Below are positions 11,185 through 39,701 of a stretch of 64,000 bases of DNA, piece after piece. The stretch comes from Actinomycetospora endophytica. GTDB lineage: Bacteria; Actinomycetota; Actinomycetes; Mycobacteriales; Pseudonocardiaceae. Both the position numbers and the translations under genes were made by a program. Each line of letters starts with the position of its first letter. Positions within the stretch are counted from its first letter, which is position 1. The notes under the pieces were generated by a model. It had not been told where the DNA came from. It did no database searches and saw only the letters and a program-made list of their open reading frames with translations. The DNA lies in assembly GCF_021026375.1 (NCBI RefSeq), contig NZ_JAJNDB010000006.1:310001-374000 (forward strand). Reading direction: 5' to 3'.

Positions 11185-11257
11185 GTGGCCTTCGGCCTTG
11201 TGAGCACTAATTGACGCTATAGCGTCAATTAGTGCTCACGAGCGCGAAGCGCACCTA
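11182..11257. terminator. Bidirectional hairpin terminator containing both stop codons
   Basis: The central 40 bp (11200-11239) form a perfect palindrome without a loop; GTGAGCACTAATTGACGCTA is mirrored exactly. The symmetry continues, with mismatches, out to TAG at 11182-11184 (stop of the exchanger) and its mirror CTA at 11255-11257 (stop of pqqE). The core is notably AT-richer than the surroundings. It serves both convergent genes. Confidence 0.88.
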
Positions 11258-12358
11258 CGCGTGCGGCCGGGCCACCAGCGGGAGGCTCACCGTCTCCCCC
11301 GCCCGGTCGGCGTTCGCCGCCTCGACCGCGGACTCCACGAGGTGGTGGTCCGGCGAGAGGTGACAGACCGGGTCGGTGCGGGTGGCGTCGCCGGTCAGCG
11401 CGAACGCCTGGCAGCGGCAGCCGCCCAGGTCGACGTCGCGGCGCTCGCAGGACCGGCACGGGTCGGGCATCCAGTCGGTGCCGCGGAACGCCGAGAACAT
11501 CGGCGAGTCCTCCCAGATCCAGCGCAGCGAGCCGTCCCGCACGTTCGCCCGCGGCAGCGGCAGCTCGTGCGCGGCCAGGCACGGCATCGCGTCCCCGGTC
11601 GGCACCACGACCAGCTGGCGCGCCCCCCAGCCGCCCATGCACGGCTTCGGGTAGGTGGCGTAGTAGTCCGGCACCACGTAGATGATCTCCATCTGGCCGC
11701 GCAGCCGTTCCTTCGCGGCCCGGACGGTGACCTCGGCCTGCGCCAGCTGCTCGCGGCTGGGCAGCAGCGCGGTCCGGTTGTGCCAGGCCCAGCCGTAGTA
11801 CTGGGTGTTGGCGAGCTCGATCCGGTCGGCGCCGAGGTCCTCGGCGGCGGCGAGCACCCGGTCGACCCGGTCGATGTTCTGGCGGTGCAGCACGACGTTG
11901 AGCGTCAGCGGCCACCCGAGGTCGCGGACGGTGCGCGCCGCGGCGATCTTGCGCTCGAACGACGGCGTGCCGGCGATGCGGTCCGAGAGGGTCGGCTCGT
12001 CGGCCTGCAGCGACACCTGCACGTGGTCGAGCCCGGCGTCGTGCAGCTCGGCGGCGCGCTTCTCGTTCAGGCCCAGCGCGCTGGTGACGAGGTTGGTGTA
12101 GAGCCCCAGCCCGGAGGCGGTCGCGACGATGTCGGCGAGGTCGCGGCGCAGCAGCGGCTCGCCGCCCGAGAGGTGCAGCTGGAGCACGCCGAGCTCGGCA
12201 GCCTCGGTGACCACGCGCTGCCAGTCGGCCGTGTCGAGCTCGTCGCGGTAGGCCGCGATCTCGATCGGGTTCGAGCAGTAGGCGCAGGCCAGCGGACAGC
12301 GGTAGGTGAGCTCGGCCAGCAGGCCCATCGGGGGTTCGGGGACGGCGGGCTCAGTCAT
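11255..12358 (-). CDS. pqqE: PQQ biosynthesis radical SAM enzyme PqqE
   Basis: A 367-residue radical SAM/SPASM enzyme that cross-links Glu and Tyr in the PqqA peptide, the first step of pyrroloquinoline quinone synthesis. The cluster motif is C21-x3-C25-x2-C28 (CPLACAYC). SAM-binding segments include LSGGEPLLRRD. The C-terminal SPASM cysteines appear in CMGGWGARQ and in CRSCERRDVDLGGCRCQAF. The start overlaps the 3' end of pqqD by eight bases. It is last in the pqqBCDE operon. Confidence 0.95.
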   Translation of the reverse strand: MTEPAVPEPPMGLLAELTYRCPLACAYCSNPIEIAAYRDELDTADWQRVVTEAAELGVLQLHLSGGEPLLRRDLADIVATASGLGLYTNLVTSALGLNEKRAAELHDAGLDHVQVSLQADEPTLSDRIAGTPSFERKIAAARTVRDLGWPLTLNVVLHRQNIDRVDRVLAAAEDLGADRIELANTQYYGWAWHNRTALLPSREQLAQAEVTVRAAKERLRGQMEIIYVVPDYYATYPKPCMGGWGARQLVVVPTGDAMPCLAAHELPLPRANVRDGSLRWIWEDSPMFSAFRGTDWMPDPCRSCERRDVDLGGCRCQAFALTGDATRTDPVCHLSPDHHLVESAVEAANADRAGETVSLPLVARPHA

Positions 12359-12635
12359 CGAGGATCTCCAGGTGCCGGCGTTCGGCGAGCTTGCTCAGGT
12401 ACCCGACCACCTGCTCGTCGGGAACCTCTCCGAACTGCTCGCGCAGCGCGGCGACGATGTCGGTCACGGTCCGCTGTCCGTCGCAGAGCTCGAGGATCGC
12501 GGCGCCGGTGGCGTTGAGGACGACGACGGTCTCCGGGAGCACGAGCACGTGCTTGCCGCGGGTCTTGTCGAAGCGCATGCGGACCCCGCGGCCGAGGCGG
12601 GGTCGCCCGGTCGTCGGGACGGTCAGCCCCGTCAT
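12351..12635 (-). CDS. pqqD: PqqA-binding chaperone PqqD
   Basis: A 94-residue PqqD, the RiPP-recognition-element protein that presents the PqqA peptide to PqqE. The family core LGRGVRMRFDKTRGKHVLVL is followed by VLNATGAAILELCDGQRTV and DIVAALREQFG, giving a winged-helix-like peptide-binding fold. The ATG at 12635 overlaps the pqqC stop as ATGA, and its own stop overlaps the pqqE start, so translation is coupled throughout. Confidence 0.93.
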   Translation of the reverse strand: MTGLTVPTTGRPRLGRGVRMRFDKTRGKHVLVLPETVVVLNATGAAILELCDGQRTVTDIVAALREQFGEVPDEQVVGYLSKLAERRHLEILDD

Positions 12636-13303
12636 GACGGGTACGCCAGGTCGATGGCGTCCATCATGCTCCAGAGGACGTCGTTCTTGAACGCGAGCGC
12701 GTCGAAGGCCGACTGCTGGTCGGCCTCGGTGTGGCAGTGCTCGAGCACCACCTCGAGGGCGTGCTCGGAGTCCCGCGGGGCCTGGAAGAGCCGGTTGCGG
12801 AAGTACTGCAGGCCCTCCGGGTCGATCCACGTGTAGTACTTCTCGAACGCCGCGAGCCGCTCGGCCATGAGGTCGGGCGCGAACAGCTCCGTCAACGACG
12901 AGGCCACCGCGATGACCCACGGCTTCGTCCGCGCGAAGGTCACGTAGGCGTCCACGGCGAAGCGCACGCCGGGCTGCAGGTGCCGGTGGTCGGTCATCTC
13001 CCCGCGGGGCACCCCGCACGCCTCGCCGAGGCGCAGCCAGGCCTCGATGCCGCCCTCCTCGCCGTCGTGACCGTCGTGGTCGGTGATCCGCCGGATCCAG
13101 CGTCGCCGCATGGTCACGTCGGGGCAGTTCGACAGGATCGCGGCGTCCTTGATCGGGATGGACTCCTGGTAGTGGAACCGGTTCGCGACCCAGCCGCGCA
13201 ACTGCTCGGGCGAGAGCTCACCCGCGTTCATGCGCACGTGGAACGGGTGGGCCGCGTGGTAGCGCTCAGCCTGCGAGCGCAGCCGGTCGACCAGGTCGCT
13301 CAT
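12632..13303 (-). CDS. pqqC: Pyrroloquinoline-quinone synthase PqqC
   Basis: A 223-residue cofactor-free oxidase that performs the last ring closure and oxidation to PQQ. The TenA-like helical bundle shows the family segments RYHAAHPFHVRMNAGELS, GWVANRFHYQESIPIKDAAI, and DHDGHDGEEGGIEAWLRLGE. His-rich active-site residues are in DHRHLQPGVRFAVDAYV. The ATG at 13303 overlaps the pqqB stop as ATGA. The length matches the family (about 225-250). Confidence 0.94.
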   Translation of the reverse strand: MSDLVDRLRSQAERYHAAHPFHVRMNAGELSPEQLRGWVANRFHYQESIPIKDAAILSNCPDVTMRRRWIRRITDHDGHDGEEGGIEAWLRLGEACGVPRGEMTDHRHLQPGVRFAVDAYVTFARTKPWVIAVASSLTELFAPDLMAERLAAFEKYYTWIDPEGLQYFRNRLFQAPRDSEHALEVVLEHCHTEADQQSAFDALAFKNDVLWSMMDAIDLAYPS

Positions 13304-14205
13304 GCCTCGATCTCCAGTTCGTCGGTGCCGATCTCCACCCCGGCCTTCTCGACGACGGCCCGTTCGGGCGAGTCCTCGAGCAGGATCGGGTTCGAGTTGT
13401 TGATGTGGACGAGGACGCGGCGCTCGACCGGCAGCGTGGCCAGCCGTTCCAGCGTCCCGCCCGGGCCGTCCAGGCTCACGTGGCCCATGTCCCGCGCGGT
13501 CTTGGTCCCGAGGCCGAGCCGGACGAGCTCGTCGTCGTGGAAGGTCGTGCCGTCCACGAGCAGGCACGACGCCCCGTCGCACGCGTCGAGCAGCGGCGCG
13601 AAGTCCGCCACCCCGGGGGCGTAGACCACGGTCCCACCGGTGCGGCGGTCGTGGAACCGGTAGCCGACGACGCGGCCCGGGTCGTCGGCCGACCCCACCT
13701 CGGCGAACCGTGGCTCCTTGCCCGTCGGCAGGTCGATCGCGGTGTAGGAGAGGTCCGCGGTGAGCGCGTGCGGCACCCCGGGCTCGACGGGGACGACCTC
13801 GACCGGGCAGTAGCGCTCCAGCGTCGTCAGGAACCCGGTGCCCCGGCGCAGCGTCGCCTCGGTCGCGGCGGTGGCGTGCACGGTGACGCCGCGGCCCTCC
13901 CGGAGCAGCATCAGCCCGAGGGTGTGGTCGATCTCCGCGTCGGTGAGCAGGATCGCGCCGAGCGGGGTCGCGCGGCCGTCGCGCGGGTGCAGCCCGGGGC
14001 AGGCGGTCATCTGCTGGCGGACGTCGGGCGAGGCGTTGACGAGGAACCACCGGTCGTCGTCGGCGGTCACCGCGATCGACGACTGGGTGCGCGGGGTCGC
14101 GGACCCGTCGCGCGCGGCCGTGCACCCGGCGCACGAACAGTTCCACTGCGGGAAGCCGCCGCCCGCGGCCGACCCGAGCACCCGAACCCGCACACGCCCT
14201 CCCAT
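13300..14205 (-). CDS. pqqB: PQQ biosynthesis protein PqqB (metallo-beta-lactamase fold)
   Basis: A 301-residue PqqB, an iron-dependent hydroxylase acting on the cross-linked Glu-Tyr intermediate. The N-terminus RVRVLGSAAGGGFPQWNCSC is diagnostic, with the paired zinc-type cysteines CSCAGC. The metallo-lactamase residues include LTDAEIDHTLGL, VLVDGTTFHDDE and VHINNSNPIL. I chose the ATG at 14205; an ATG at 14223 in frame adds six residues. It is the first gene of pqqBCDE. No PqqA-like peptide with E-x3-Y is encoded in the roughly 105 bp to the divergent gene. Confidence 0.93.
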   Translation of the reverse strand: MGGRVRVRVLGSAAGGGFPQWNCSCAGCTAARDGSATPRTQSSIAVTADDDRWFLVNASPDVRQQMTACPGLHPRDGRATPLGAILLTDAEIDHTLGLMLLREGRGVTVHATAATEATLRRGTGFLTTLERYCPVEVVPVEPGVPHALTADLSYTAIDLPTGKEPRFAEVGSADDPGRVVGYRFHDRRTGGTVVYAPGVADFAPLLDACDGASCLLVDGTTFHDDELVRLGLGTKTARDMGHVSLDGPGGTLERLATLPVERRVLVHINNSNPILLEDSPERAVVEKAGVEIGTDELEIEA

Positions 14206-14310
14206 CGTCGCTGACCACCCCATCGTGGTTCCCGCCCGGTGCGTGCGCAAGATCACCTCGGTGCGCACCGCGACGGATGGGTGACCGGTCCGGCCGGGAA
14301 CCCCCGGTCC

Positions 14311-15365: not shown

Positions 15366-16148
15366 TTGACCGACGAGGCGGAGGCCGACTCCTCGCTCGA
15401 GGCCGAGTTCGACACCGTCGCCGCCTGGACCGAGCGCGCGGTCGCCGAGCTCGGCGAGGACCACGCGATCCCCGCCGCCTGCCGCGGGTCGGGCCGGCCC
15501 GCGGACCTCGCCTGGCTCGCCGACGGCCTCGACCTGCACCGGGGCGACCGCTTCCTCGACGCCGGGTCCGGGCTCGGCGGGCCGACGGCGTGGCTGGCGC
15601 AGGAGCACCGCTCCGACTGGACCGGGCCCGCCGTGCTCGCCGAGCCGATGGCGCACGCCGCGGCCGCGTCCCGCCGGCTCTTCGGGCTCCCCACCGTCGC
15701 GGCCTGGACCGAGCACCTCCCCCTGCCCGACGAGGCCGTCGACGCGGCCTGGTCCCTCGGCGTCCTCGACGTCGCCGGCGACGCGCGCGCCCTGCTGGCC
15801 GAGCTGCACCGGGTGCTGCGGCCCGGCGCGCGGCTCGGGCTGCTCCAGCTGGTCGCGCGCGGCGAGCTCTCCGAGGAGCTGGCCAGCAACGACTTCCCCA
15901 CCGACGTCTCGCTGCACCGCGCGCTCGCGGCCACCGGCTTCCGGGTGTCCGACCGCCTGGACGCGTCGTCGCTGCCCGACGCGCCCGCGGACTGGTCGCG
16001 GCGGGCCGATGCCGTCGACGCCGTGGTGGCCCGGGACCACGGCGACCATCCCGACTTCGTCGAGGCCGGGCGCCAGCAGGAGATCCTCGGGCGGCTGATG
16101 GCCGCCGGGGAGGTCGTCACCGTGCTGCTGCACGTCCAGCGGTGCTGA
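15366..16148 (+). CDS. Class I SAM-dependent methyltransferase
   Basis: A 260-residue Rossmann methyltransferase. Motif I is FLDAGSGLGGPTAWLA; post-motif segments include VDAAWSLGVLDVAGD and ELHRVLRPGARLGLLQLV. The substrate is unknown. I chose the TTG at 15366 because GGGAGGT sits five bases upstream. A GTG at 15345, overlapping the upstream stop as GTGA, is the alternative. It is coupled to the MTHFR-like gene, so it could transfer or dispose of a methyl group in the same pathway. Its last 32 bases overlap the 3' end of the convergent kinase gene. Confidence 0.78.
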   Translation: MTDEAEADSSLEAEFDTVAAWTERAVAELGEDHAIPAACRGSGRPADLAWLADGLDLHRGDRFLDAGSGLGGPTAWLAQEHRSDWTGPAVLAEPMAHAAAASRRLFGLPTVAAWTEHLPLPDEAVDAAWSLGVLDVAGDARALLAELHRVLRPGARLGLLQLVARGELSEELASNDFPTDVSLHRALAATGFRVSDRLDASSLPDAPADWSRRADAVDAVVARDHGDHPDFVEAGRQQEILGRLMAAGEVVTVLLHVQRC

Positions 16149-19100
16149 TCAGGCCCTCACAGGACGACGCCAGCACCTCGGCCGCGTCGCGGACCGCCCG
16201 CTGGGCCGGGATGTGCGCAGCGAGGCGCTGCCACCGGGCGCGCTGCTCCAGCGCGGCGGTGGTGACCTCGGTGGTCTCGGCCGTGGGCTCCAGCCCGAGC
16301 CGGGCGCGCGGGGAGATCCCGTCGCGGCCGAGCAGCCGCACCGCGGCGTCGCGGTGTGCCTCGGGGAGCACCAGCCGCCCGGTCCGCAGCGCCTCGGCGA
16401 GCTCGGCCTCGGCGACCTCCTGCGCCCCGGCGGCGCGCACCCGCTCGACGTCGAAGAGGACCCGGCGCGCCCAGGGCTCGCTCCCGCCGCGCCGGGCGAG
16501 CCGGTCGAGCTCGTCGAGCACCGCGCGGGCCCGGGAGCGTGCGGCCCGGGGGCGGCAGTCGTCGACGACCACCTCGACGACGCGCTCCAGGTTCCGCCCC
16601 TCCGGCGAGCCCGGACCGGGCAGCGCGACGCGGACCGTGTGACCGACCGGGGCGAGCGGAGCGACGGGGGACGTCGTCGGTGCGGCGCTGATCGACGGCT
16701 CGTCGTCGCCGACCGAGACCGCGGGGACGACCCGCACGTCCACCGTCGGGAGGTCGGCCAGCCAGCCCGGCACCCACGAGCCGGCCTCGTCCTCGGCGAG
16801 CAGGACCAGCACGTCGACGACGTCCTCGGGTGCGAGCGGGCCCTCGGCGGCGCGCGCCGAGAGGTCGACGACGAGGGCGGGGCGCGGGCAGAGCGCGACG
16901 ACCGCCCGGGCCGTGGCCGCGGCGTCGGGCCGGTTCGGGCCGGCGACCCCGATGCGCCACGGCGTGCCGTACCGGGCGAGCAGCCCCGCGAGCGGCCGGG
17001 CGACGGGGTGCTGCGGCGGGGTCTGCGCGACGATCCGCCGGAGCAGGTCGATCGACGCGTCGAACAGGCGTGACCCCGAGGGCGGCAGCGGCGCCGGTCC
17101 GGGACCGGACGGATCGGGGGCCGGGCGCGGCGGCCCGAGCACCGGGACGACGGCGCGGATCCGCTCGACGGGCTCGGGCACGGCCGGGGAGCCCACGTCC
17201 TCCCGGGTGCTCCCTGCGGTGGTCTCGACCGGGCGGACGATCGTCGCCGCCAGGGCGGTCGTCGCGGCCGGGTCGTCGGGGACCGCCACCGGCGCGGGCT
17301 CGGCGGGGAGCGGGACCTCGACGCGGACCGTGGTCCCGGCCCCGGGGGCGGAGTCCAGCTCGACGCGCCCGGAGACCGGGGACAGCCGCGTCGTGAAGTT
17401 CCGCAGCCCCCGGCCCGGGCCCTGTCCCGGCGTGGGCGTGAAGCCGGGGCCCTCGTCCCGGACGACCGCACGCAGCACGCCGTCGGAGTCGCTGACCCGC
17501 ACCGTGATCGCGGCGCCGCCCGCGTGCTTGCGGGCGTTGTTCACCGCCTCCAGGGCGCAGAAGTAGACGGCCGACTCGATCGCCTCGTCGTGCCGGGCGA
17601 CGCCGTCGCCCTCGACGGCGATCGGCGGCTCGGCCTCGGCGAGGTCGGAGCGCAGCGTCTCCAGCGGACCGAGGCGCCGTAGCGTCGCCGACGACACCCC
17701 GGTCGCGGTCTCGGCCAGCACCGACTCGGCGGTGTCGAGCTGGGTGACGAGCGTGTCGAGGCGCTCGCGGGCGCCGTCGAGCCGCGCCGCGCCCACCAGG
17801 TGCTCGACGAGCCCGAGGGTCAGCCGCAGCGACACCAGGTGGTGCTGGGCCCCGTCGTGCAGGTTGCGCTCGATCGCCCGGCGCTCGCTGTCCATCTCGG
17901 AGACCAGCCGCCGCCGCGATGCCGCGATCTCCTCGGCGTGCGCGAGCGCGACCCGCAGCTGGCGCTCCAGCTCGATCTCGAGCCGGTGCGCCGCGAGCAC
18001 CCCGCCGAGCCCGTCGGCCACGTCGCTCACCAGCCGGCGGCGGTCGTCGCCGCCGGCGAGGGTCTCGGCGTCGACGACGAGGGTGCCGACCTCGGCGCCC
18101 TCGTGCCGCACCGGGAAGGCCACCTCGTCCTCGTCCGCGCCGCCGTCGGGGGCGCGCCAGCGCGAGGTGCGGTCGCTCATCCCGTCGCGGCGGGTCGTCA
18201 GCCGCACCGCGCGGGCGCCGAGCGCCCGGCCGACGGCCTCGGGGACCCGGTCGAGGCCGGTCGGGTCGCCGGCCGTGCGCCGGGAGAGCTCCGAGACCTC
18301 GGCGAGCACGCCCGCGGGGGTGGCCCGGGTCCCGTAGAGGAGGCGCTCGGCGAGCCGGTCGGTCCACGCGGACACCGGCAGCCACAGGGCCGCGACCACC
18401 ACGACCGCCACGACGTACCCGACGACGGCCGACCCGGTCACGGTGGCGACGACCGTCGCGAGCAGGACGGCCAGCCCGCCCAGCAGCACGATCGTGACCA
18501 GTGCCGCGAGGCCGCCGCGCATCCAGCGCTCGGCCGGTCGGGCGCGCCGCGCGACGAGCACGGCCAGCGCGATCACCGCGGCGGTCAGCCGGGCGAACCA
18601 GAACAGCAGCGCCGTGGGGACCATGCCGAGCGGGCTGTGGTGGGCGGTCGGGTCGTCGAGCGTGAGCCCCGGATGCCCGAGCGCGACGAGGACCGCGGTG
18701 AGCACCGCGAGCACCGTCGCGGCCCCCACCGCCGCGACCAGCACGCTGGTGAGCAGCCGGGCGCGGGCGCGGGCCTCCGGCGTGGGGCCGCGGCGCACCC
18801 CCGGGGCGATCGCGGCGACCCCGAGCAGCGGCACCGCGAACCCGAAGAACACCACGCAGCTCAGCGTGTGGGGCAGCAGCGCGGTCCCGACGCCCGCGAC
18901 GAACAGCGTCACCGCCACGACGGCGTAGACGACCCGGCGCCGCCCCGGGCTCCCGGCGGTCTCGACCGGCACGAGCAGCAGCGCCCCGGCGAACGCGGCG
19001 CCCGCCACCCCGTGCAGCAGGATCTGGTGCGCCTCGCCGATCTCGATCCCGGTGGCCTCCTGGACGGCCAGCGCGGCCGCGTGGGCCTGGAGGTTGAACG

Positions 19101-19389
19101 CGCCCGCCGAGCCGACCATGGCCAGGGCGAGCAGGCGCATCGCCCAGGACCGGCCGCCGTGACGCAGCAGCACCACGGCGACGACGAGGTTCACGGCGCT
19201 GGCGAGGTAGTCGACGATCGCCTGGCCGGGCGGCTCGTTCAGCGGCGTGGAGACCAGCGCGCCCACGGTCAGCCACACCAGGGTCAGCGCCGACACCGCG
19301 ACGAACACGACCCACCAGACCACCGTCAGCAGCCGGTCGGTGCCGGGCCGGTCCGCCTCGACCGGCCCGCCCGCCGCGACCGCCGTCAT
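16117..19389 (-). CDS. Membrane sensor histidine kinase fused to degenerate dynamin-like GTPase domain
   Basis: About 1090 residues. Residues 20-330 have roughly ten hydrophobic helices. A GAF-like segment follows (about 345-470). The HisKA_3 motif has the acceptor His near residue 511 in AIERNLHDGAQHHLV, and the ATPase domain is intact (N-box EAVNNARKHAGG, G1 VRDEGPGF). After a Pro-rich linker comes an extension of about 390 residues. It resembles the actinobacterial dynamin-like/IniA GTPases: P-loop position WRIGVAGPNRPDAAAT without the GKS, and the closing signature ALRTGRLVLP, LLGRDGISPRARLGL, RWQRLAAHIPAQ, SSCEGLI. The GTPase part is thus probably inactive and may bind partner dynamins. 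The start overlaps the upstream gene as ATGA. Confidence 0.8.
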   Translation of the reverse strand: MTAVAAGGPVEADRPGTDRLLTVVWWVVFVAVSALTLVWLTVGALVSTPLNEPPGQAIVDYLASAVNLVVAVVLLRHGGRSWAMRLLALAMVGSAGAFNLQAHAAALAVQEATGIEIGEAHQILLHGVAGAAFAGALLLVPVETAGSPGRRRVVYAVVAVTLFVAGVGTALLPHTLSCVVFFGFAVPLLGVAAIAPGVRRGPTPEARARARLLTSVLVAAVGAATVLAVLTAVLVALGHPGLTLDDPTAHHSPLGMVPTALLFWFARLTAAVIALAVLVARRARPAERWMRGGLAALVTIVLLGGLAVLLATVVATVTGSAVVGYVVAVVVVAALWLPVSAWTDRLAERLLYGTRATPAGVLAEVSELSRRTAGDPTGLDRVPEAVGRALGARAVRLTTRRDGMSDRTSRWRAPDGGADEDEVAFPVRHEGAEVGTLVVDAETLAGGDDRRRLVSDVADGLGGVLAAHRLEIELERQLRVALAHAEEIAASRRRLVSEMDSERRAIERNLHDGAQHHLVSLRLTLGLVEHLVGAARLDGARERLDTLVTQLDTAESVLAETATGVSSATLRRLGPLETLRSDLAEAEPPIAVEGDGVARHDEAIESAVYFCALEAVNNARKHAGGAAITVRVSDSDGVLRAVVRDEGPGFTPTPGQGPGRGLRNFTTRLSPVSGRVELDSAPGAGTTVRVEVPLPAEPAPVAVPDDPAATTALAATIVRPVETTAGSTREDVGSPAVPEPVERIRAVVPVLGPPRPAPDPSGPGPAPLPPSGSRLFDASIDLLRRIVAQTPPQHPVARPLAGLLARYGTPWRIGVAGPNRPDAAATARAVVALCPRPALVVDLSARAAEGPLAPEDVVDVLVLLAEDEAGSWVPGWLADLPTVDVRVVPAVSVGDDEPSISAAPTTSPVAPLAPVGHTVRVALPGPGSPEGRNLERVVEVVVDDCRPRAARSRARAVLDELDRLARRGGSEPWARRVLFDVERVRAAGAQEVAEAELAEALRTGRLVLPEAHRDAAVRLLGRDGISPRARLGLEPTAETTEVTTAALEQRARWQRLAAHIPAQRAVRDAAEVLASSCEGLISTAGRAAAR

Positions 19390-20669
19390 CGGGTGGCCCC
19401 GGCCTCGACCAGCGGGCTGAGCTGGATCGGAAGCCGCGCCCGCAGCACCGTGCGCCCGGCGTCGTCGACGTGCGTCTCGAGCGAGCCGCCGAGGGCGGCG
19501 AGCCGGTCGGCGTCGTCGGCGAGGGCCTCGCGGGTGGCGTCCGGGTCGGCCTCGGCGTCGATCAGCCGGACCTCGGCGCGGTCGTCGGTCTGCTCGAGAT
19601 CCAGCTCCAGCGGCTCGTCGCCGGAGCGGCCGCCGAGCAGGCCGAGCGCCGAGGCGGCGGCGTAGTACAGCCCCGACTCGACCTCCCACGGGAGGCGGTC
19701 GGTGAGACGCCCGGACAGGTGCACCGCCCGCGGCAGGTCGGCGATGATCTCCTCGAGCGCGGCGCGCGGGCCCTGGTCGCGCAGCACGGCGGGGTGGACG
19801 CCGCGGGCGATGGCCCGGAACCGGTCGAGCAGTTCCTCCAGCCGCTCGCGGGCGGTCTCCAGGTGGTGGCGGGCGAGCTCGGTCGCCTCGTCACGATCGT
19901 CCTCCGGCTCCTCGAGGCCCTCGTCGATCGACTCGCCGGCGTCGGTGACCGCGGTCCGGAAGGCGACGAGCCGGTCGGTGGTGGCGCCCCCGAGCTCGCC
20001 GACCAGGCGGCGGCGCTCGACCTCCCGGGCCCGGCCCAGGCGCCGCCGCGACGCCTCGGTCTCGCGGGCCAGCTCGCCCGCACGCGCCACCCGGCTGCGC
20101 AGCTCGGCCCCCCGGGCGACCACCCGCAGCAGCAGCCCGGCGCCCGACCCGACCTCCGCGACGAGCGTCCGGTCGGCGGCCGTCACGGGCCGGCCCGGCT
20201 TGCCGAGGGTGAGGACCGCGCGCAGCTCGCCGTCGTCGACCACCGGGAGCGCGTGGTCGACGTCCGGCCGGAGCAGCAGGTCCGTCAGCGACGCGGCCCG
20301 CTCCGGCCCGGACTGCGCGGCGAGCCCGCCGGGGACGGCCAGCCAGACCTCGGCGTGGGCGGCCCCGGTCCCCTCGCGCAGGACCTGGGCGAGGCCGGAC
20401 AAGGACGCCGGGGCGGTGGCGGCGAGCAGCGCGGAGCGGCCCGCCCGCCCGGGGTCGGTGCGGTCGTCCGGGCTCCCCGGGCGCGCCCGGCCGGTCGCCG
20501 CCAGGACCGCGGCCGCGAGCCCGGCGCCCCCGAACGGCGCGAGCAGCGGCCCGATGTCCGGGCCGAGGACCGCCTCGCCGATCACCACCGCGACGGCCAG
20601 GCAGGCAGCGACGATGGCGACGGCGCTGAGTGCTCGCCACACCCGCTCCGCACCCGATCGGTCCATCAC
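19386..20669 (-). CDS. Histidine-kinase-like protein lacking the phospho-acceptor His (pseudokinase)
   Basis: A 427-residue protein with two N-terminal hydrophobic helices (about 12-60), a GAF-like region (about 85-195) and a HisKA_3-like helical hairpin. Where kinases read E-R-R-R-L-x-x-x-L-H-D, this one reads ERRRLVGELGGATTD, so the His is Gly (about residue 226). The ATPase-like end also lacks the N-box Asn (LYYAAASALGLLGG) and the G boxes. The fold is recognisable but neither autophosphorylation nor ATP binding is expected. It probably acts as a regulatory dimer partner of the neighbouring kinase. It lies between the response regulator (68 bp gap) and the large kinase (ATGA overlap). Confidence 0.75.
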   Translation of the reverse strand: MMDRSGAERVWRALSAVAIVAACLAVAVVIGEAVLGPDIGPLLAPFGGAGLAAAVLAATGRARPGSPDDRTDPGRAGRSALLAATAPASLSGLAQVLREGTGAAHAEVWLAVPGGLAAQSGPERAASLTDLLLRPDVDHALPVVDDGELRAVLTLGKPGRPVTAADRTLVAEVGSGAGLLLRVVARGAELRSRVARAGELARETEASRRRLGRAREVERRRLVGELGGATTDRLVAFRTAVTDAGESIDEGLEEPEDDRDEATELARHHLETARERLEELLDRFRAIARGVHPAVLRDQGPRAALEEIIADLPRAVHLSGRLTDRLPWEVESGLYYAAASALGLLGGRSGDEPLELDLEQTDDRAEVRLIDAEADPDATREALADDADRLAALGGSLETHVDDAGRTVLRARLPIQLSPLVEAGATR

Positions 20670-20736
20670 ACCGCCGTCTCGTCCGCTCCTCTGGGCACGG
20701 AGAGTAGGCGGGCCGGGGCCGGGGCGGAAGAGTCGG

Positions 20737-21402
20737 TCAGGACTCCCCGCGCTGCGACCGGAGGTAGGTCAGCACGGCGAGCACCCGCCGGTGGTGGACC
20801 GAGGCGTCCCCGTGCAGCCCGAGCTTGTCGAAGATGCTCGCGATGTGCTTCTCGACCGCCTTGCCGCTGACGAACAGGGTGGACGCGATGCCGCCGTTGG
20901 ACCGTCCCTCGGCCATCAGCTTCAGCACGTCGCGCTCCCGCTCGGAGAGCGCGGCCACCACGTCCTTGCGGTCGTTGCGCGGCTTCTCGACCAGGCGCTT
21001 CGCCAGGACCGGCTCGATGACGATCTCGCCGTCGGCGATCCGGGAGAGCGTGTCGGAGAGGACCTCGACGCTGCCGACCTTCTCCTTGAGCCGGTAGCCG
21101 ACGCGGTCGGTCCCGATCTCGAGGATCCGCACGAGGTAGTGCGACTCGGCGTAGTGCGAGAGGAACAGCAGCCCCATCTCCGGGTGCGCGGCGCGCAGCC
21201 GCTCGGCGGTGACGAGCCCGCCGTCGGGCTCCGGGGGCATCCGGATGTCGAGCAGCGCGACGTCGACGGGGTCGTTCGCCAGCGCCGCGACCAGCTCGTC
21301 CCCGCCCGGCACGCACGCCACGACCTCGTGCCCCGAGGCCTCCAACAGCATGACGAGGCCCTGGCGGAAGAGCGCCCCGTCCTCGGCGACCGCTACGCGC
21401 AC
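20737..21402 (-). CDS. NarL/LuxR-type response regulator
   Basis: A 221-residue response regulator. The receiver has acidic AEDGALFRQG, acceptor Asp52 in ALLDIRMPPEPDGG, the switch residue in LFLSHYAE and the Lys in GYRLKEKVGSV. The C-terminal LuxR-type HTH is intact: LSERERDVLKLMAEGRSNGG, then SGKAVEKHIASIFDKLGL. The GTG at 21402 lies within the 3' end of the upstream kinase-like gene (10-base overlap). The three kinase-like proteins around it are presumably its inputs. It is a candidate reader of the 7-4-7 inverted motif found upstream of its own operon. Confidence 0.88.
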   Translation of the reverse strand: MRVAVAEDGALFRQGLVMLLEASGHEVVACVPGGDELVAALANDPVDVALLDIRMPPEPDGGLVTAERLRAAHPEMGLLFLSHYAESHYLVRILEIGTDRVGYRLKEKVGSVEVLSDTLSRIADGEIVIEPVLAKRLVEKPRNDRKDVVAALSERERDVLKLMAEGRSNGGIASTLFVSGKAVEKHIASIFDKLGLHGDASVHHRRVLAVLTYLRSQRGES

Positions 21403-22082
21403 GGGAACCTCGCCGTGATCGTCCCGGCGCTCCCGGGCGCACCCTCGACGTCGACGGTGCCGCCGAGCGGACCCGCCTCGTCGAGCACGGCGGGACCGAG
21501 GGCGGGGTCCGCCCCCTCGATGACGACGACCACGATGTCTCCCCCTTCGACGGTTCCTGGCTCCCGGCGGATCCGCACGGCCAGCGGGGCCCCCGACGCC
21601 TCCAGACAGTCGGCGAGCGCGAAGTACACCGCGCCCTCGACGGCGGGCTCGGCGCGGTCCGCGGCGACGTCCAGGACGACGTCGCGCTGCCGCGCGGTGA
21701 CTAGCTCGCGCAGCGCCGGGCCGAGGCCTGCCTCGTGCAGCAACGGCGGGTAGATCTGGCTCGCGACCGCCCGGAGCTCCTCGAGCGCGGCGGCCACCTC
21801 GTCCTGCAGCGCGGCGATGTCGCGGTGCCGGGCGCCGTCGTCGGGATCGACGCTGCCGTTCTCGAGCACCCCGAGCCGGAGCGCGAGCGAGGAGATCCTC
21901 AGCGCGGCGCCGTCGTGGAGCTGGCGCTCCAGGCTGCGGCGGCGGCGCCACCGTTCCTCCTGACGACGACGGTCCTCGCGGGCGTCCGTCTCGGGTGCGG
22001 GCACGGCGGCATCCCCCGATCCGGGCTGGTCGGGCCGCCGGCCGGGACGCGGGTTCCGGTCGACGACCACCGCGGGCGTCAT
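21393..22082 (-). CDS. Soluble HisKA_3 protein with degenerate ATPase domain
   Basis: A 229-residue cytoplasmic protein without membrane or sensor regions. It keeps a phospho-acceptor-type His at residue 56 (RRRRSLERQLHDGAALRI) and a dimerisation hairpin (EELRAVASQIYPPLLHEAGL). The ATPase domain lacks the N-box Asn (VYFALADCLEASGAP) and a clear G1 motif (VVIEGADPALGP). It may be phosphorylated in trans by the large kinase of the same operon and pass phosphate to the adjacent regulator, as a phosphotransfer protein would; this is inference. It is the first gene of the operon and is divergent from the Hsp70-like gene. Confidence 0.72.
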   Translation of the reverse strand: MTPAVVVDRNPRPGRRPDQPGSGDAAVPAPETDAREDRRRQEERWRRRRSLERQLHDGAALRISSLALRLGVLENGSVDPDDGARHRDIAALQDEVAAALEELRAVASQIYPPLLHEAGLGPALRELVTARQRDVVLDVAADRAEPAVEGAVYFALADCLEASGAPLAVRIRREPGTVEGGDIVVVVIEGADPALGPAVLDEAGPLGGTVDVEGAPGSAGTITARFPCA

Positions 22083-22139
22083 GGCTGCACAGCCTTCCGG
22101 GCGCGGCGTCCGACGGCGAGGGGGCGCACCCTCCCGCGA

Positions 22140-22157
22140 GGTAGGGTTCTCCCCCTT
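22140..22157. promoter_or_regulatory. Candidate operator, 7-4-7 motif (site A)
   Basis: GGTAGGG-TTCT-CCCCCTT. It lies in the divergent region 58 bp upstream of the soluble kinase gene and 114 bp upstream of the Hsp70-like gene. The left half matches the ideal half-site GGTAGGG, and the same layout recurs at 39684, 45695, 46085 and 51588. Confidence 0.45.
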
Positions 22158-22270
22158 GACGAGCGCCGTGTGACGGTCCGGAGTCGCTCCGTGATCACCG
22201 GCGTCGGGTGCTCCCCGCCCGCCGCCGATGTCATTACGATGCGTGGGCTCGTGCGCGGAGGGGAGACGGC

Positions 22271-24178
22271 GTGGCCCACGTTCTCGGGGTCGATCTCGGG
22301 GGGACGACCGTCGCGGCGGCGGTCGCGGGGGACGACGGCCGCCCCGAGATGGTCGCCCTCGGCGACCGGTCGATCATCGTCCCGGCGGTCGTGCACCACC
22401 GCGACGGCGGCTCGCTGGTCACCGGCGAGGTCGCCGCACGGCGGGCCACCACCGACCCGTCCCGGGCGGCGTGGGGGGTCCGCCGCCGCCTCGGGGACCC
22501 GGCACCCGTCCTGCTCGGCGAGGAGACACGGCCCGCGACCGACCTGCTCGCGGCCATCCTGCGCGACGTCCTCGTGCGCGTGGCGACCGTGCGGGGCGAG
22601 ACGGCCCGGCGGGTGGTCCTGACCCACCCGGCCGGGTGGGGTCCCTTCCGCCGGGGGCTCTTCGAGGACGTGGCGGCCGCGGCCGGTCTGCCCGACGCCG
22701 CGATGATCACCGACGCGCAGGCCGCCGCCGGCCAGCAGCGCGCCCTCCACGGGTTCGACGACGGGTCCGTGGTCGCGGTGTACGACCTCGGCGGCAGTTC
22801 CTTCGAGGCCTCCGTGCTCACCCGCCGCGGCGACGCGCTGGAGCCCGTGGGGTCGCCCGTCGACATCGAGCGCCTCGGCGGCACCGATTTCGACGAGGCG
22901 GTGATCGCGCTGGTCGACGAGTCCTCCGGCGGGCTGCTCGCCGACCTCGACCCCGACGACGACGCGAGCGCCGCCGTCCTCGCCCGCCTCCGCCAGGACT
23001 GCCTCGTGGCGAAGGAGGCGCTCTCCTCCGAGGACGAGGTGAACGTGCCGGTGCTGCTGCCCGGGCGGCACGCGGAGGTCTCGGTGTCGCGCGCGGCGTT
23101 CGAGGAGCGCATCCGGCCGACCGTGACCCGCAGCGTGGAGGCGCTCGGTCGGGCCTTGGAGGCCGCGCCAGTGCGGCCCGGCGCCGTGCTGCTGATCGGC
23201 GGTTCGGCACGGGTCCCGCTGGTCGAGCGGACCGTCGCGGACCGGCTCGGGCTCCGCGTGATCGTCGACGACCACCCGGAGTACATGGTGGCGCTCGGGG
23301 CGGCGCGCGCGGCGGCGGAGCTGGCGGGAGCCGACGCCCCGGCGGGCGAGGCGGCCGCCGGATCGTCGCCGGCGCGCGGGAAGGCCCGGGCGAAGGGCCG
23401 CTCGAAGCCGAAGGTGGAGACGGCGGCCGCGGCGGCCTCGTCGTCGGCCGATGCGGAGTCCTCGGCGCCGACGACGGTGACCCCACGACCGGTGGTCGAC
23501 GGTCGGGTCGCCGCCGTCAGCCAGGACGACGTGCAGACCACGGTGACCCGCCCGGGCTCGCCGGCCGACGACACCAAGACCACCGTCACCCGCCCGGAAC
23601 CCGGCGACGCGCAGACCACGGTGACTCGCGCGAGCTCGCCCGCCGACGAGACGAAGACCGCCGTCGTGCGCCCGTCGCCCGGAACCGGCCCGCAGCCGCG
23701 AACCGGCGGTCCGTCGACGCGGCCCTCCGGCGAGCAGAGCGCGCCGCGCCAGCAGCCCGCGCGGCCCGGGATGCCGAGCGGGTCGTTCCCCGCGGTGGGC
23801 CGGCCGGCCCCGGGACAGGGACCCGCACCGGGGGTGCCGATGCCGGGCCCGGGTGCTCAACGTCCCGGCGGGCAAGGTCCTGGTGGGCAGGCATCGTGCG
23901 GGCAAGGGCCGGGTGGTCAGGGTCCGGGCCGTCGTCCGGGCCCGCCGGGCGGCCGTCCACCGGCCGGTCCGCCGGGCGCGCCCCAGCGGCCGATGACGGG
24001 GCCCTTCCCGGGCGCCGGGGGCCCCGGCACCGGGCCGCCGGCGCAGGCTCCCGCCCCGTCGCCCACCGAGGCCCCGTCGGGCGGCCGGAGCTCGCGGACC
24101 GTGCTGCTCGTCGTCGCGGCCGTGATCGTGCTGCTGGTGCTCGTCGGGGGTGCGCTGCTCGCCACCGGCGTGCTCTAG
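22271..24178 (+). CDS. Hsp70-family (actin-fold) protein with Thr-repeat, Pro-rich tail and C-terminal TM
   Basis: A 635-residue protein. Residues 1-355 form an Hsp70-type ATPase: phosphate-1 VLGVDLGGTTVAAAV, phosphate-2 AVYDLGGSSFEASVL, adenosine LLIGGSARVPLVERTV. There is no substrate-binding domain. A basic linker follows, then about residues 401-480 with repeats of the form TTVTRP (QTTVTRPGSP, KTTVTRPEPG, QTTVTRASSP, KTAVVRPSPG), a long Pro/Gly/Gln stretch, and one transmembrane helix at the end (RTVLLVVAAVIVLLVLVGGA). It is therefore a cytoplasmic, membrane-anchored Hsp70-like protein. The GTG at 22271 has GGAGGGGAGA upstream. It is divergent from the kinase operon. Confidence 0.87.
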   Translation: MAHVLGVDLGGTTVAAAVAGDDGRPEMVALGDRSIIVPAVVHHRDGGSLVTGEVAARRATTDPSRAAWGVRRRLGDPAPVLLGEETRPATDLLAAILRDVLVRVATVRGETARRVVLTHPAGWGPFRRGLFEDVAAAAGLPDAAMITDAQAAAGQQRALHGFDDGSVVAVYDLGGSSFEASVLTRRGDALEPVGSPVDIERLGGTDFDEAVIALVDESSGGLLADLDPDDDASAAVLARLRQDCLVAKEALSSEDEVNVPVLLPGRHAEVSVSRAAFEERIRPTVTRSVEALGRALEAAPVRPGAVLLIGGSARVPLVERTVADRLGLRVIVDDHPEYMVALGAARAAAELAGADAPAGEAAAGSSPARGKARAKGRSKPKVETAAAAASSSADAESSAPTTVTPRPVVDGRVAAVSQDDVQTTVTRPGSPADDTKTTVTRPEPGDAQTTVTRASSPADETKTAVVRPSPGTGPQPRTGGPSTRPSGEQSAPRQQPARPGMPSGSFPAVGRPAPGQGPAPGVPMPGPGAQRPGGQGPGGQASCGQGPGGQGPGRRPGPPGGRPPAGPPGAPQRPMTGPFPGAGGPGTGPPAQAPAPSPTEAPSGGRSSRTVLLVVAAVIVLLVLVGGALLATGVL

Positions 24179-37984: not shown

Positions 37985-39553
37985 TCACTGGTCGGAGCCC
38001 TCCTTGCTGCTCTTCTGCGAGCCGCCGGTCGAGGAGTTCGAGGAGCTGCTGCTCGACGAGCCGGTCTTGGCGGAACCGCCGGTGGCGGAGGAGCCGGTCT
38101 CCCCCGTGGAGCCGGTCTCGCCGCCCTTCGTCGTGCCCGTCGCCGGTGTGGTGCCGGTCGCGGCGTCGGCCGAGCCGGTCGGGAGCTTGCAGTCCTTGGT
38201 GGCCGTGTCGGCGACGACGGTGGCGGTGCAGGTCGTGGTGCCGGTGGCCGGGCCCTGGGCCGGCAGCGTCTGCTCCTCGGCCGGGATCCCGGCCCCCGGG
38301 CCGACCGTCGGGTTGTTCTGGACCTTCGTGGCCTTGTCCTGCTCGTCCTTCGCGGCCGGGGCCTTCGCGGAGTCGTCGGCCTTCTGCTGGGCGTCCTTCG
38401 CGTTCTTCTCGGCCGCCTCGGCGGTGCCCTTGGCGCTGGTGGCCGCGGCGTCGGCGAACTTGAACTGGTTGTTCTTGGTCTCCAGGTCCTGCTTGGCCTG
38501 GTCGCGGACCTTCGTCAGCTCGGCGATCACCGTCGGGTTCGCGCCCTCGGCGATCGCGCGGGCCAGGTCGGCCTCGGCGCCGTTGAGGTTGGTCTGGGCG
38601 ATCGTGGCGGCGTTCTTGAAGCCGTCGGCCCGCTCGCGGGCGGCGGTGGCCTCGGCGCGGGCCTTGTCGGCGGTGGCCTTCGCCTCCTGGGCCTGCTTCA
38701 CGAGCGCCGGGTCGGGCTGCGGGGTGGTCGTGGGATTGGGCCCGGGATGCGGCTTGGGGTCGGGCTTGCCCGGGATGACGACGACGCGGGAGTTGTCGAT
38801 CGAGGTGAAGCTGAACTGCGTGATGACCTGGGGGGTGGGGGTGATCGTGACCGCGTCCGAGGCCTGCGCCCCGGCGGTGAGCGGGTTGCCGTTGAAGCAC
38901 TTGACGGTGGGCTCGCCGTAGCTGTTGACCAGCACCGCGGTGCCGGCGGCGAGGATCGCGGGCTGCTCGGTGAACGCGCCGTCGCTGTACGGGTGGTCGG
39001 TCACCGAGGTGTTCGCCCGCAGCACCACCGGGGAGAGGCTGTCGACGAACGCGGGGACGTCGCTCGCGCCGAGGCCGAAGACCCCGCCGAAGGCGGCGAG
39101 CTTGGCCGGGTCGGCCTGCAGCTGGCCGAGGAGGTCGGCGGTGGTGCAGGCGGGCGGGGTGGTGGCCGCATAGAGACCCTTCGTGTCACCGGACTGCGGG
39201 CCGGTGGCGGCGACGGCGGCGACCTGCGGGGCGTCGGTGCCGAACGGGCTCGTCGTCGGGTTGGCCCCGGCGAAGGAGGTCGACTGCACCGCGGCCTGGG
39301 CCGGGGAGCTGGAGAGCGCGATCCAGGTGCCGGCCCCACCGAGGACCAGGCCCGCGGCGACCATCCCGGCGACGATCTTCCCGGCCAGCGGCCGCTTGGG
39401 GGTGGACTGCCCGAGTGGAGGTGGGACCGAGCCGGCGAACTGCCGACCGGACGAGGTCTGGGGCCCGAACTGGCCGGTGCGGAACTGCGGGGCGTCATGG
39501 CGCGGGGTGCCGTACTGCTGGGGGTGGACGGTGCGGGGGTCGAAGTTCGTCAT
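37985..39553 (-). CDS. Membrane-anchored DUF6777-type protein with coiled coil and Ser/Thr-rich tail
   Basis: A 522-residue protein. A Pro/Gln/Phe-rich cytoplasmic N-terminus (about 1-54) precedes one TM helix (AGKIVAGMVAAGLVLGGAGT). An extracellular domain follows (about 105-250, with ACTTADLLGQLQADPAKLAA, VLRANTSVTDHPYSDGAF and the paired Cys of CFNGNPL), which I recognise as DUF6777-like. Then come a Lys/Ala/Glu-rich coiled coil (about 275-400), a Cys-containing stretch (TTTCTATVVADTATKDC) and a Gly/Ser/Thr tail. It is probably an exported envelope protein of unknown role. The ATG at 39553 follows GAGGAG. Confidence 0.75.
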   Translation of the reverse strand: MTNFDPRTVHPQQYGTPRHDAPQFRTGQFGPQTSSGRQFAGSVPPPLGQSTPKRPLAGKIVAGMVAAGLVLGGAGTWIALSSSPAQAAVQSTSFAGANPTTSPFGTDAPQVAAVAATGPQSGDTKGLYAATTPPACTTADLLGQLQADPAKLAAFGGVFGLGASDVPAFVDSLSPVVLRANTSVTDHPYSDGAFTEQPAILAAGTAVLVNSYGEPTVKCFNGNPLTAGAQASDAVTITPTPQVITQFSFTSIDNSRVVVIPGKPDPKPHPGPNPTTTPQPDPALVKQAQEAKATADKARAEATAARERADGFKNAATIAQTNLNGAEADLARAIAEGANPTVIAELTKVRDQAKQDLETKNNQFKFADAAATSAKGTAEAAEKNAKDAQQKADDSAKAPAAKDEQDKATKVQNNPTVGPGAGIPAEEQTLPAQGPATGTTTCTATVVADTATKDCKLPTGSADAATGTTPATGTTKGGETGSTGETGSSATGGSAKTGSSSSSSSNSSTGGSQKSSKEGSDQ

Positions 39554-39683: not shown

Positions 39684-39701
39684 GCGGGGGTTCTCCCTAC
39701 C
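39684..39701. promoter_or_regulatory. Candidate operator, 7-4-7 motif (site B)
   Basis: GCGGGGG-TTCT-CCCTACC. It lies 56 bp upstream of the HAD gene and 131 bp upstream of the divergent DUF6777-type gene. Its right half is the exact mirror of the left half of site A. Confidence 0.45.

Follow-up and report, generated by a model that had tools for sequence, protein, structure and literature searches.

Why should a bacterial histidine kinase end in a piece of dynamin, and why should it be encoded beside a membrane-anchored Hsp70-like protein? The question is raised by a block of five genes at positions 16117-24178 of a 64,000-nucleotide stretch of the Actinomycetospora endophytica genome (hereafter the window; positions 310001-374000 of contig C14 in genome G000, which comprises 6.98 Mb in 17 contigs). 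Our answer, to which we assign a probability of about one half, is that an ini-type dynamin/Hsp70 locus was coupled to two-component signalling with three kinase-like proteins, and that the block so formed serves to sense the envelope. The content and order of the genes, the tail on the kinase, the states of the kinases, the regulator, the anchored Hsp70 and the repeat shared between promoters can all be read from the sequence itself.

All five genes are present as open reading frames. Four of them form a run on the minus strand, P0004 (21393-22082), P0003 (20737-21396), P0002 (19386-20669) and P0001 (16117-19389), in which P0004 and P0003, and likewise P0002 and P0001, overlap by a few bases, with a gap of 67 bases between the two pairs; P0005 (22268-24178, plus strand) is divergent from this run. 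P0001, the intact kinase (K), is a membrane histidine kinase of 1090 amino acids with a dynamin-derived C-terminal extension. It has about nine hydrophobic segments by hydropathy, a membrane region (residues 20-339; 18373-19332, minus strand) without a Pfam family, and a kinase core (residues 495-700; 17290-17907, minus strand) in which Pfam recognises HisKA_3 (residues 502-554) and HATPase_c (residues 607-695) and in which the phosphoacceptor His, N box and G box are intact. P0002, the pseudokinase (K2), is a two-helix membrane protein that matches no kinase family in Pfam and has lost both the LHDG His and the N box. P0004, the His-only protein (K3), is soluble and matches HisKA_3 alone; it retains LHDG, and the N box is gone from its degenerate ATPase part. 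P0003 is a NarL/LuxR-type response regulator (Response_reg and GerE by Pfam) whose start codon is uncertain, with the receiver Asp, Ser/Thr and Lys of an intact phosphorylation pocket and a LuxR-type helix-turn-helix.

About 390 residues follow the kinase core of P0001, and the last ~150 of these share homology with the tails of dynamin-like GTPases from actinobacteria (phmmer 4.7e-19). When seven hybrids alone were compared with eight intact dynamins using hhalign, this IniC-type tail (residues 936-1090; 16120-16584, minus strand) aligned over 147 columns with a probability of 99.3% (E 7.5e-21). Chance resemblance at the C-terminus of a simple two-component operon is ruled out, because an independent comparison of profiles finds the homology significant and the tail recurs. 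The last part of P0001 also matches four other places in its own genome, namely a second hybrid (L008) and the GTPases of L007, L009 and L010, all three of which have GKS P-loops and a Dynamin_N domain (Pfam). Intact dynamins of this kind match the BDLP (2.9e-14) and IniA (1e-12) chains by sequence over the G domain, and an AlphaFold2 model of one (predicted local distance difference test, pLDDT, 84.8; predicted template modelling score, pTM, 0.85) matches SynDLP, mitofusins, IniA and BDLP by fold. P0001 itself has no GKS P-loop (GxxxxGKS/T), the sequence there reading GPNRPDAAA, and its C-terminus has no Pfam match, Dynamin_N included.

Between the kinase and the tail of P0001 lies a conserved, degenerate G-like region without a P-loop (residues 777-935; 16585-17061, minus strand), whose own homology to dynamin G domains is only suggestive. 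The model of the C-terminus (pLDDT 85.5, pTM 0.74) shows long helices after a small beta-alpha fold. In a VIA structure comparison it matched mitofusin 2 (MFN2) with Z 9.2 over 202 residues, amid receiver domains at Z 8-10, and no other dynamin-family chain was among the 50 VIA matches listed, an absence that does not establish a different fold. In relatives of the block the series is clear: the corresponding regions of L121, L125, L126 and L128, taken together, align with dynamin G domains at an hhalign probability of 99.5% (E 1.8e-21). Because of its position and this series, residues 777-935 are likely to be a dead G domain, with weaker support in the window itself.

To see how far the arrangement recurs, we compared 33 related loci, chosen for the presence of the regulator together with at least two of the kinase, the pseudokinase and the Hsp70-like gene. 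A fused tail was found in 28 of these blocks, on the kinase in 18 and on the pseudokinase in 10, and within the genus the kinase-fused tail occurs in 12 of 18 genomes (G000-G017); for four others (G005, G009, G011 and G012) "no fused tail" means that tail searches found none, and a tail-less block is possible there. The P-loop (GNHRCGKT) is kept by only two tail-bearing blocks, L052 and L120, and is missing in the other 26. In these two (L052, 9509-12439; L120, 8575-11460) a pseudokinase is joined to a dynamin with an intact P-loop, a full fusion of kinase relative and GTPase. An assembly or frame artefact as the source of the fusion is ruled out by open fused frames in many genomes. A second complete block lies in the window's own genome (L008, 2887-10084), with a co-directional Hsp70-like gene whose product has a beta-propeller.

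In a tree of the joined kinase, pseudokinase, regulator and Hsp70 sequences, the loci with a kinase tail form a clade (87) nested among those with a pseudokinase tail. In a tree of the tails, the fused ones group in a single clade (0.94), from which 36 free IniC-type dynamins stand apart; this tree took in the 24 of 28 fused tails that passed filters (L048, L050, L052 and L053 were dropped) and left out L020-L023, L034 and L037 as duplicates. The simplest reading of this history is that the block captured an IniC-type dynamin once, that the tail then moved from the pseudokinase to the kinase, and that the GTPase was lost repeatedly. Free dynamin relatives, some matched only in part and all of unchecked intactness, were found by profile in 25 of the 26 genomes where a block bears a tail, and also in genus genomes without a fused tail.

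The states of the three kinase relatives are themselves conserved. The kinase turned up in every one of the 33 loci but L125, where it is not in the stretch covered, and all 32 keep the LHDG His and the N-box Asn, with a G2-box-like stretch that varies in more distant loci. The pseudokinase lacks a His at the phosphoacceptor position in all 32 loci readable there (L128, the remaining one, is gapped) and an N-box motif in all 33; in L049, L118, L121 and L122 a His stands one position downstream of the phosphoacceptor site. The His-only protein is a separate gene in 27 of the 33 loci and, in the 26 read, keeps its His and has lost the N box (L126 reads LHNG). The Asp, Ser and Lys of the regulator pocket are kept in 33 of 33. 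A pocket survey that ranked rows by profile score had 33 kinase rows, including L137 (no block) and omitting L125, and 35 pseudokinase rows, including L134 and L136 (no blocks, His kept); the kinase and pseudokinase counts above are by block instead. By this pattern of His and N-box conservation, the block has a single working kinase, accompanied by a His-only protein and an inert partner.

The divergent gene, P0005, encodes an HSP70 domain (Pfam, 2e-36), a Pro-rich stretch and a C-terminal membrane anchor. Its reading frame is open from 22208, although the alignment places the probable start at 22268, and the protein is tail-anchored by a single helix at residues 632-650 of the 656-residue open reading frame. 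It has no substrate-binding domain, the best stretch of PF00012 covering profile positions 107-377 of 599. The Hsp70-like domains of the blocks nest within the Hsp70s of ini loci (0.988; 27 block and 2 ini rows) and apart from DnaK, and the node uniting the block sequences alone has a support of 0.352. Of the 33 loci, 30 show the Hsp70-like gene within the stretch covered, the exceptions being L123, L130 and L135. In each of the 26 block Hsp70-like proteins with a complete C-terminus, one hydrophobic helix follows the ATPase domain. Beyond it, 326-340 residues are found in seven proteins, 200-249 in four and at most 10 in fifteen, the window's among them. Pfam identified a YNCE/Lactonase-type beta-propeller in all four of the longest extensions scanned and an Exop_C galactose-binding-like domain in all four of the intermediate ones scanned. 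Because basic residues precede the helix in those sequences that were printed, the extra domains are suggested to lie outside the cell, and the presence of a propeller or galactose-binding-like domain beyond the helix in some relatives makes the Hsp70-like protein look like a receptor. L125, L126, L127 and L129 are the loci at which the Exop_C galactose-binding-like domain lies past the membrane helix.

DnaK-type nucleotide-binding domains carry the motifs DLGTT, DLGGGT and GGSxR and a catalytic Lys. P0005 reads DLGGT, DLGGSS and Arg for the catalytic Lys, and across the window's clade of seven loci the Lys of KRRLGDP is replaced by Arg and DLGGGT by DLGGSS or DLGGTS (DVGGTS in L041). Because of these two changes, ATP hydrolysis by P0005 may be impaired.

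These results confirm what an original prediction observed in this DNA and support its interpretation in part. Its five genes, four on the minus strand and a divergent Hsp70-like gene, are present with Pfam support; its intact membrane kinase, pseudokinase, His protein with a broken ATPase and NarL regulator are borne out by Pfam and motifs; the kinase C-terminus is related to dynamins and, as it had said, reads GPNRPDAAA in place of a GKS P-loop; and the membrane-anchored Hsp70-like ATPase is there, now seen to be tail-anchored and with a refined start. The claim that the fusion ties a membrane-remodelling scaffold to the kinase does not hold as put: P0001 is joined to no active GTPase, having a dynamin tail and a degenerate, weakly supported G-like region, and some blocks do without the tail.

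The tail and the Hsp70-like protein both lead to ini loci. In two mycobacteria-like ini loci (L182 and L183), IniR was recognised at 1279 and 1415 bits (cut-off 750), IniB-type proteins scored over their cut-offs, and each locus has two dynamin-type GTPases, the first of 619 or 618 amino acids and the second, in the IniC position, of 494 or 497. Dynamin_N was found in all three of these four GTPases that were scanned with Pfam. The smaller GTPase, which we take to be IniC from the order and size of the iniBAC genes, matches the G and tail profiles of the kinase-tail dynamin family; no IniC model matched. At both loci the Hsp70-like gene directly adjoins the true IniR gene. A comparable set lies at L009 in the window's own genome, where the IniR relative is more distant (9.7e-96, 322 bits, below the cut-off of the IniR model): two Dynamin_N proteins and an Hsp70-like gene are accompanied there by an IniB N-terminal domain (1.5e-15). 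Through L009, L182 and L183 the block is linked to iniBAC/IniR by its dynamin family (IniC position, ~500 amino acids), an Hsp70-like neighbour and a LuxR-type helix-turn-helix regulator at the locus. The block differs in that its regulator belongs to a two-component system with three kinase relatives and its dynamin survives as a tail on the kinase. Its five proteins gave no whole-protein match to IniA, IniB, IniC or IniR, and what the two have in common is limited to the IniC-type tail and the Hsp70-like gene. In mycobacteria iniBAC induction reportedly depends on IniR, in a paper whose text contains no "Hsp70" (PMC5760070), and IniC has been suggested to regulate IniA or to form hetero-oligomers with it (PMC6715688).

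What the regulator might control is indicated by a promoter repeat. Among 25 divergent intergenic stretches between the Hsp70-like and K3 genes, the 4-mer palindrome AGGG-N6-CCCT was found in 13 (0.17 expected), and no pattern exceeded 8 in 60 shuffled sets. The related form GTAGGG-N4-CCC is present in 15 of the 25; gaps of 0-3 give 0-1, and the reversed pattern at gap 4 gives 0. In the window two copies lie 22 bp apart: AGGGGGCGCACCCTCC at 22119-22134 and GTAGGGTTCTCCCCCT at 22141-22156 (both strandless), the latter in the divergent K3/Hsp70 promoter region and followed by TTGAC. The stricter form GGTAGGG-N4-CCC has 11 matches in the window's own genome vs 31 for a reversed control. It stands at the window block, at the second block (L008), where a copy that was not used in deriving the pattern lies 67 bp before K3, and upstream of three of the six genes for DUF6777 proteins; for the remaining six of the 11 matches crude gene calling gave no obvious target. 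One of the repeat-bearing DUF6777 genes lies in the window (37985-39553, minus strand), encodes a protein with one apparent membrane helix and is a candidate target outside the block, its GGTAGGGAGAACCC site lying upstream at 39688-39701 (minus strand). Two DUF6777 paralogues in the same genome share this arrangement with a GGTAGGGAGAACCC site. A DUF6777 gene without the repeat lies ~5.6 kb upstream of the L008 block (C13:358777), and in another genome (G007:C1:42700-45104) one without the repeat closely follows an IniC-type dynamin in the same orientation.

We extended this analysis to 24 genomes, 21 of which contain DUF6777 genes (49 in all). Of the upstream regions, 48 were scored (the G002 C7 gene was left out), and 13 have the repeat (0.33 expected). 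All 13 belong to the seven genus genomes with the window's form of the block (clade A), where they make up 13 of 19 DUF6777 genes with at least one in every genome. The repeat is found at none of the 29 elsewhere, that is, 0/9 in the four genus genomes without a fused tail, 0/8 in four clade-B genomes and 0/12 in other genera; by genome, none of the eight scored genus genomes outside clade A has one. Gaps of 5 and 6 also score high (12 and 8 of the 48, 13 and 11 of the 25) because of C runs. Within the seven genomes, 18 of 98 strict matches lie at block (7) or DUF6777 (11) promoters. From the repeat's presence at both kinds of promoter, a self-regulated circuit feeding DUF6777 envelope proteins follows naturally as a prediction.

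How might such a system work? The Hsp70-like protein, or its partners, would read the state of the envelope. Its own state, or that of free IniA/IniC-type dynamins assembled at the membrane, would then be conveyed to the kinase by way of the dynamin-tail module, through homotypic or heterotypic tail contacts. P0001, as the active kinase, would autophosphorylate, phosphorylate the His of P0004 in trans, or both, with P0002 as its allosteric partner, and phosphate would pass via P0001, and perhaps P0004, to P0003. The regulator would bind GTAGGG-N4-CCC and so control the operon that encodes it, the gene for the Hsp70-like protein and those for DUF6777 membrane proteins. That the block senses the state of the membrane or envelope was offered as a hypothesis in the original prediction; it remains one, strengthened by the ini kinship, the extra domains of Hsp70-like proteins in relatives and the DUF6777 promoter sites. 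The prediction's co-occurrence of Hsp70-like and dynamin genes is likewise seen, at the loci L007, L009 and L010 of the window's own genome, and its view of the system as undescribed agrees with the open-licence literature, where no description of the kinase/dynamin-tail/Hsp70-like arrangement was among the matches listed. More tentatively, the block could stand for a new class of transmembrane signalling in which an Hsp70-like receptor, in relatives with exported propeller or galactose-binding-like domains, is paired with a dynamin-derived module, a kinase directly reads the assembly of membrane-remodelling dynamins and transcription of envelope proteins (DUF6777) is the output.

Several observations weigh against an envelope-sensing system of this kind. 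We infer the signal, the direction of control and the partner of the tail. In the window, the altered Hsp70 motifs and the absence of anything beyond the helix mean that the receptor-ATPase role may have been lost there. The pseudo-G region of P0001-type proteins matches the dynamin G profile weakly (hhalign, 21.8% probability), and no Foldseek match to the C-terminus of P0001 fell under 0.001, which leaves a different fold unproven. Five of the 33 blocks (L123, L131-L133 and L135) have no tail, which shows that a block can do without one, and one genome with a tail-bearing block (G044) has no free IniC-type dynamin at E 1e-10. The promoter link to a regulon is correlative, and since the genomes are related its counts are not independent. 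Clade-B blocks are without GTAGGG-N4-CCC. Strict matches number 9-22 per genome in the four genomes without a fused tail vs 8-18 in the others, so that totals are not raised and only the position of the matches speaks. Lastly, none of the 11 strict matches in the window's own genome falls at the dynamin loci L007, L009 and L010, leaving unsupported the idea that the repeat also marks free-dynamin loci.

Some of these observations suit a simpler account, in which the block is an ordinary NarL-type two-component system and the tail supplies dimerisation or localisation helices, unlinked to dynamins, Hsp70 or the envelope. The near-universal loss of the P-loop, the tail-less blocks and the separate clade of fused tails are all as this account would have it. 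A plain dimeriser would, however, need no kinship with dynamins; the dynamins from which the tail derives are encoded beside the same Hsp70-like subfamily, and the fused proteins of L052 and L120 keep an intact P-loop. We regard this as possible, though with the odds clearly against it. Less likely still is that the kinases act chiefly on dynamins and Hsp70, which they would recruit or scaffold at a stressed membrane, with transcription as feedback and the tail as an effector rather than a sensor. Output modules often lie after a kinase catalytic core, as the tail does here, and free dynamin relatives are matched in nearly all genomes with a tail-bearing block; yet such dynamins also occur in genus genomes without a fused tail, G044 lacks a free partner, and the regulator pockets, intact in every locus, point to a transcriptional output. 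That the module is a degenerating paralogue, decaying in the window's lineage and doing little, would fit its dead P-loop, altered Hsp70 motifs and bare Hsp70 helix, but is improbable: pseudo-G and tail, at 64% mean pairwise identity among the seven species, lie between the linker (44%) and the kinase core (69%), and the same seven genomes retain the DUF6777 sites.

An envelope-sensing role can also be set against known systems. The free relatives of the tail share Dynamin_N and the dynamin-superfamily fold with BDLP, IniA, SynDLP and the dynamin-like proteins of Campylobacter jejuni; P0001 differs from them in having no P-loop and no C-terminal Pfam match. LiaRS-type envelope systems pair a NarL-type regulator with a HisKA_3 kinase. 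In actinobacterial PspC-kinase fusions, membrane-stress proteins serve as kinase modules (PMC9239133). The block is like both in its regulator and kinase and in having a relative of membrane-stress proteins as a kinase module, and unlike them in having a dynamin tail and an Hsp70-like protein in place of PspC, LiaF or PspA. In GTPase-centred conflict systems, whose hosts include actinobacteria, a GTPase occurs with an HSP70 without a peptide-binding domain; there, however, the GTPases are others and come with tubulin, GrpE or effectors, and in the main text "dynamin" does not occur and no histidine kinase is named among the vWA-associated effectors (PMC7159879). The block shares with these the pairing of GTPase ancestry and an HSP70 without a substrate-binding domain. 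As for its inert kinase relative, histidine pseudokinases reportedly operate within two-component networks elsewhere, as a version of ChrS in Corynebacterium glutamicum and as the repurposed Caulobacter kinase DivL. Unlike these, the block has two different partial kinases conserved in the same operon as an intact one.

A dynamin tail fused to a kinase, with a membrane-bound Hsp70-like protein encoded alongside, suggests that stress signalling, dynamins and Hsp70-like proteins act together. Ini-type dynamins are induced by cell-wall drugs in mycobacteria, and their cellular role is poorly understood; the block offers a handle on them through its kinase, DNA site and candidate target genes, all of which lend themselves to assays in harmless actinobacteria of the soil. 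Hsp70 domains, too, gain a receptor-like architecture, and DUF6777 proteins, whose name appears in no paper of the open-licence literature searched, gain a predicted regulator.

A role in anti-phage defence was considered and rejected, as PADLOC found nothing for P0001, P0002, P0004 or P0005; it gave weak CARF-model matches for the P0003 regulator and weak LeoA/LeoBC matches for free dynamins, the latter taken to reflect the GTPase family. A whole-protein search of the genome contigs returned one remote kinase and otherwise nothing useful. The flanks of the block look unrelated to it, with PIG-L, TetR and ETF genes on one side and PQQ-type biosynthesis and MTHFR/methyltransferase genes on the other. 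The PQQ-type genes that adjoin the block (window 11255-14218) encode radical SAM/SPASM, PqqD, PQQC-family and beta-lactamase-fold proteins.

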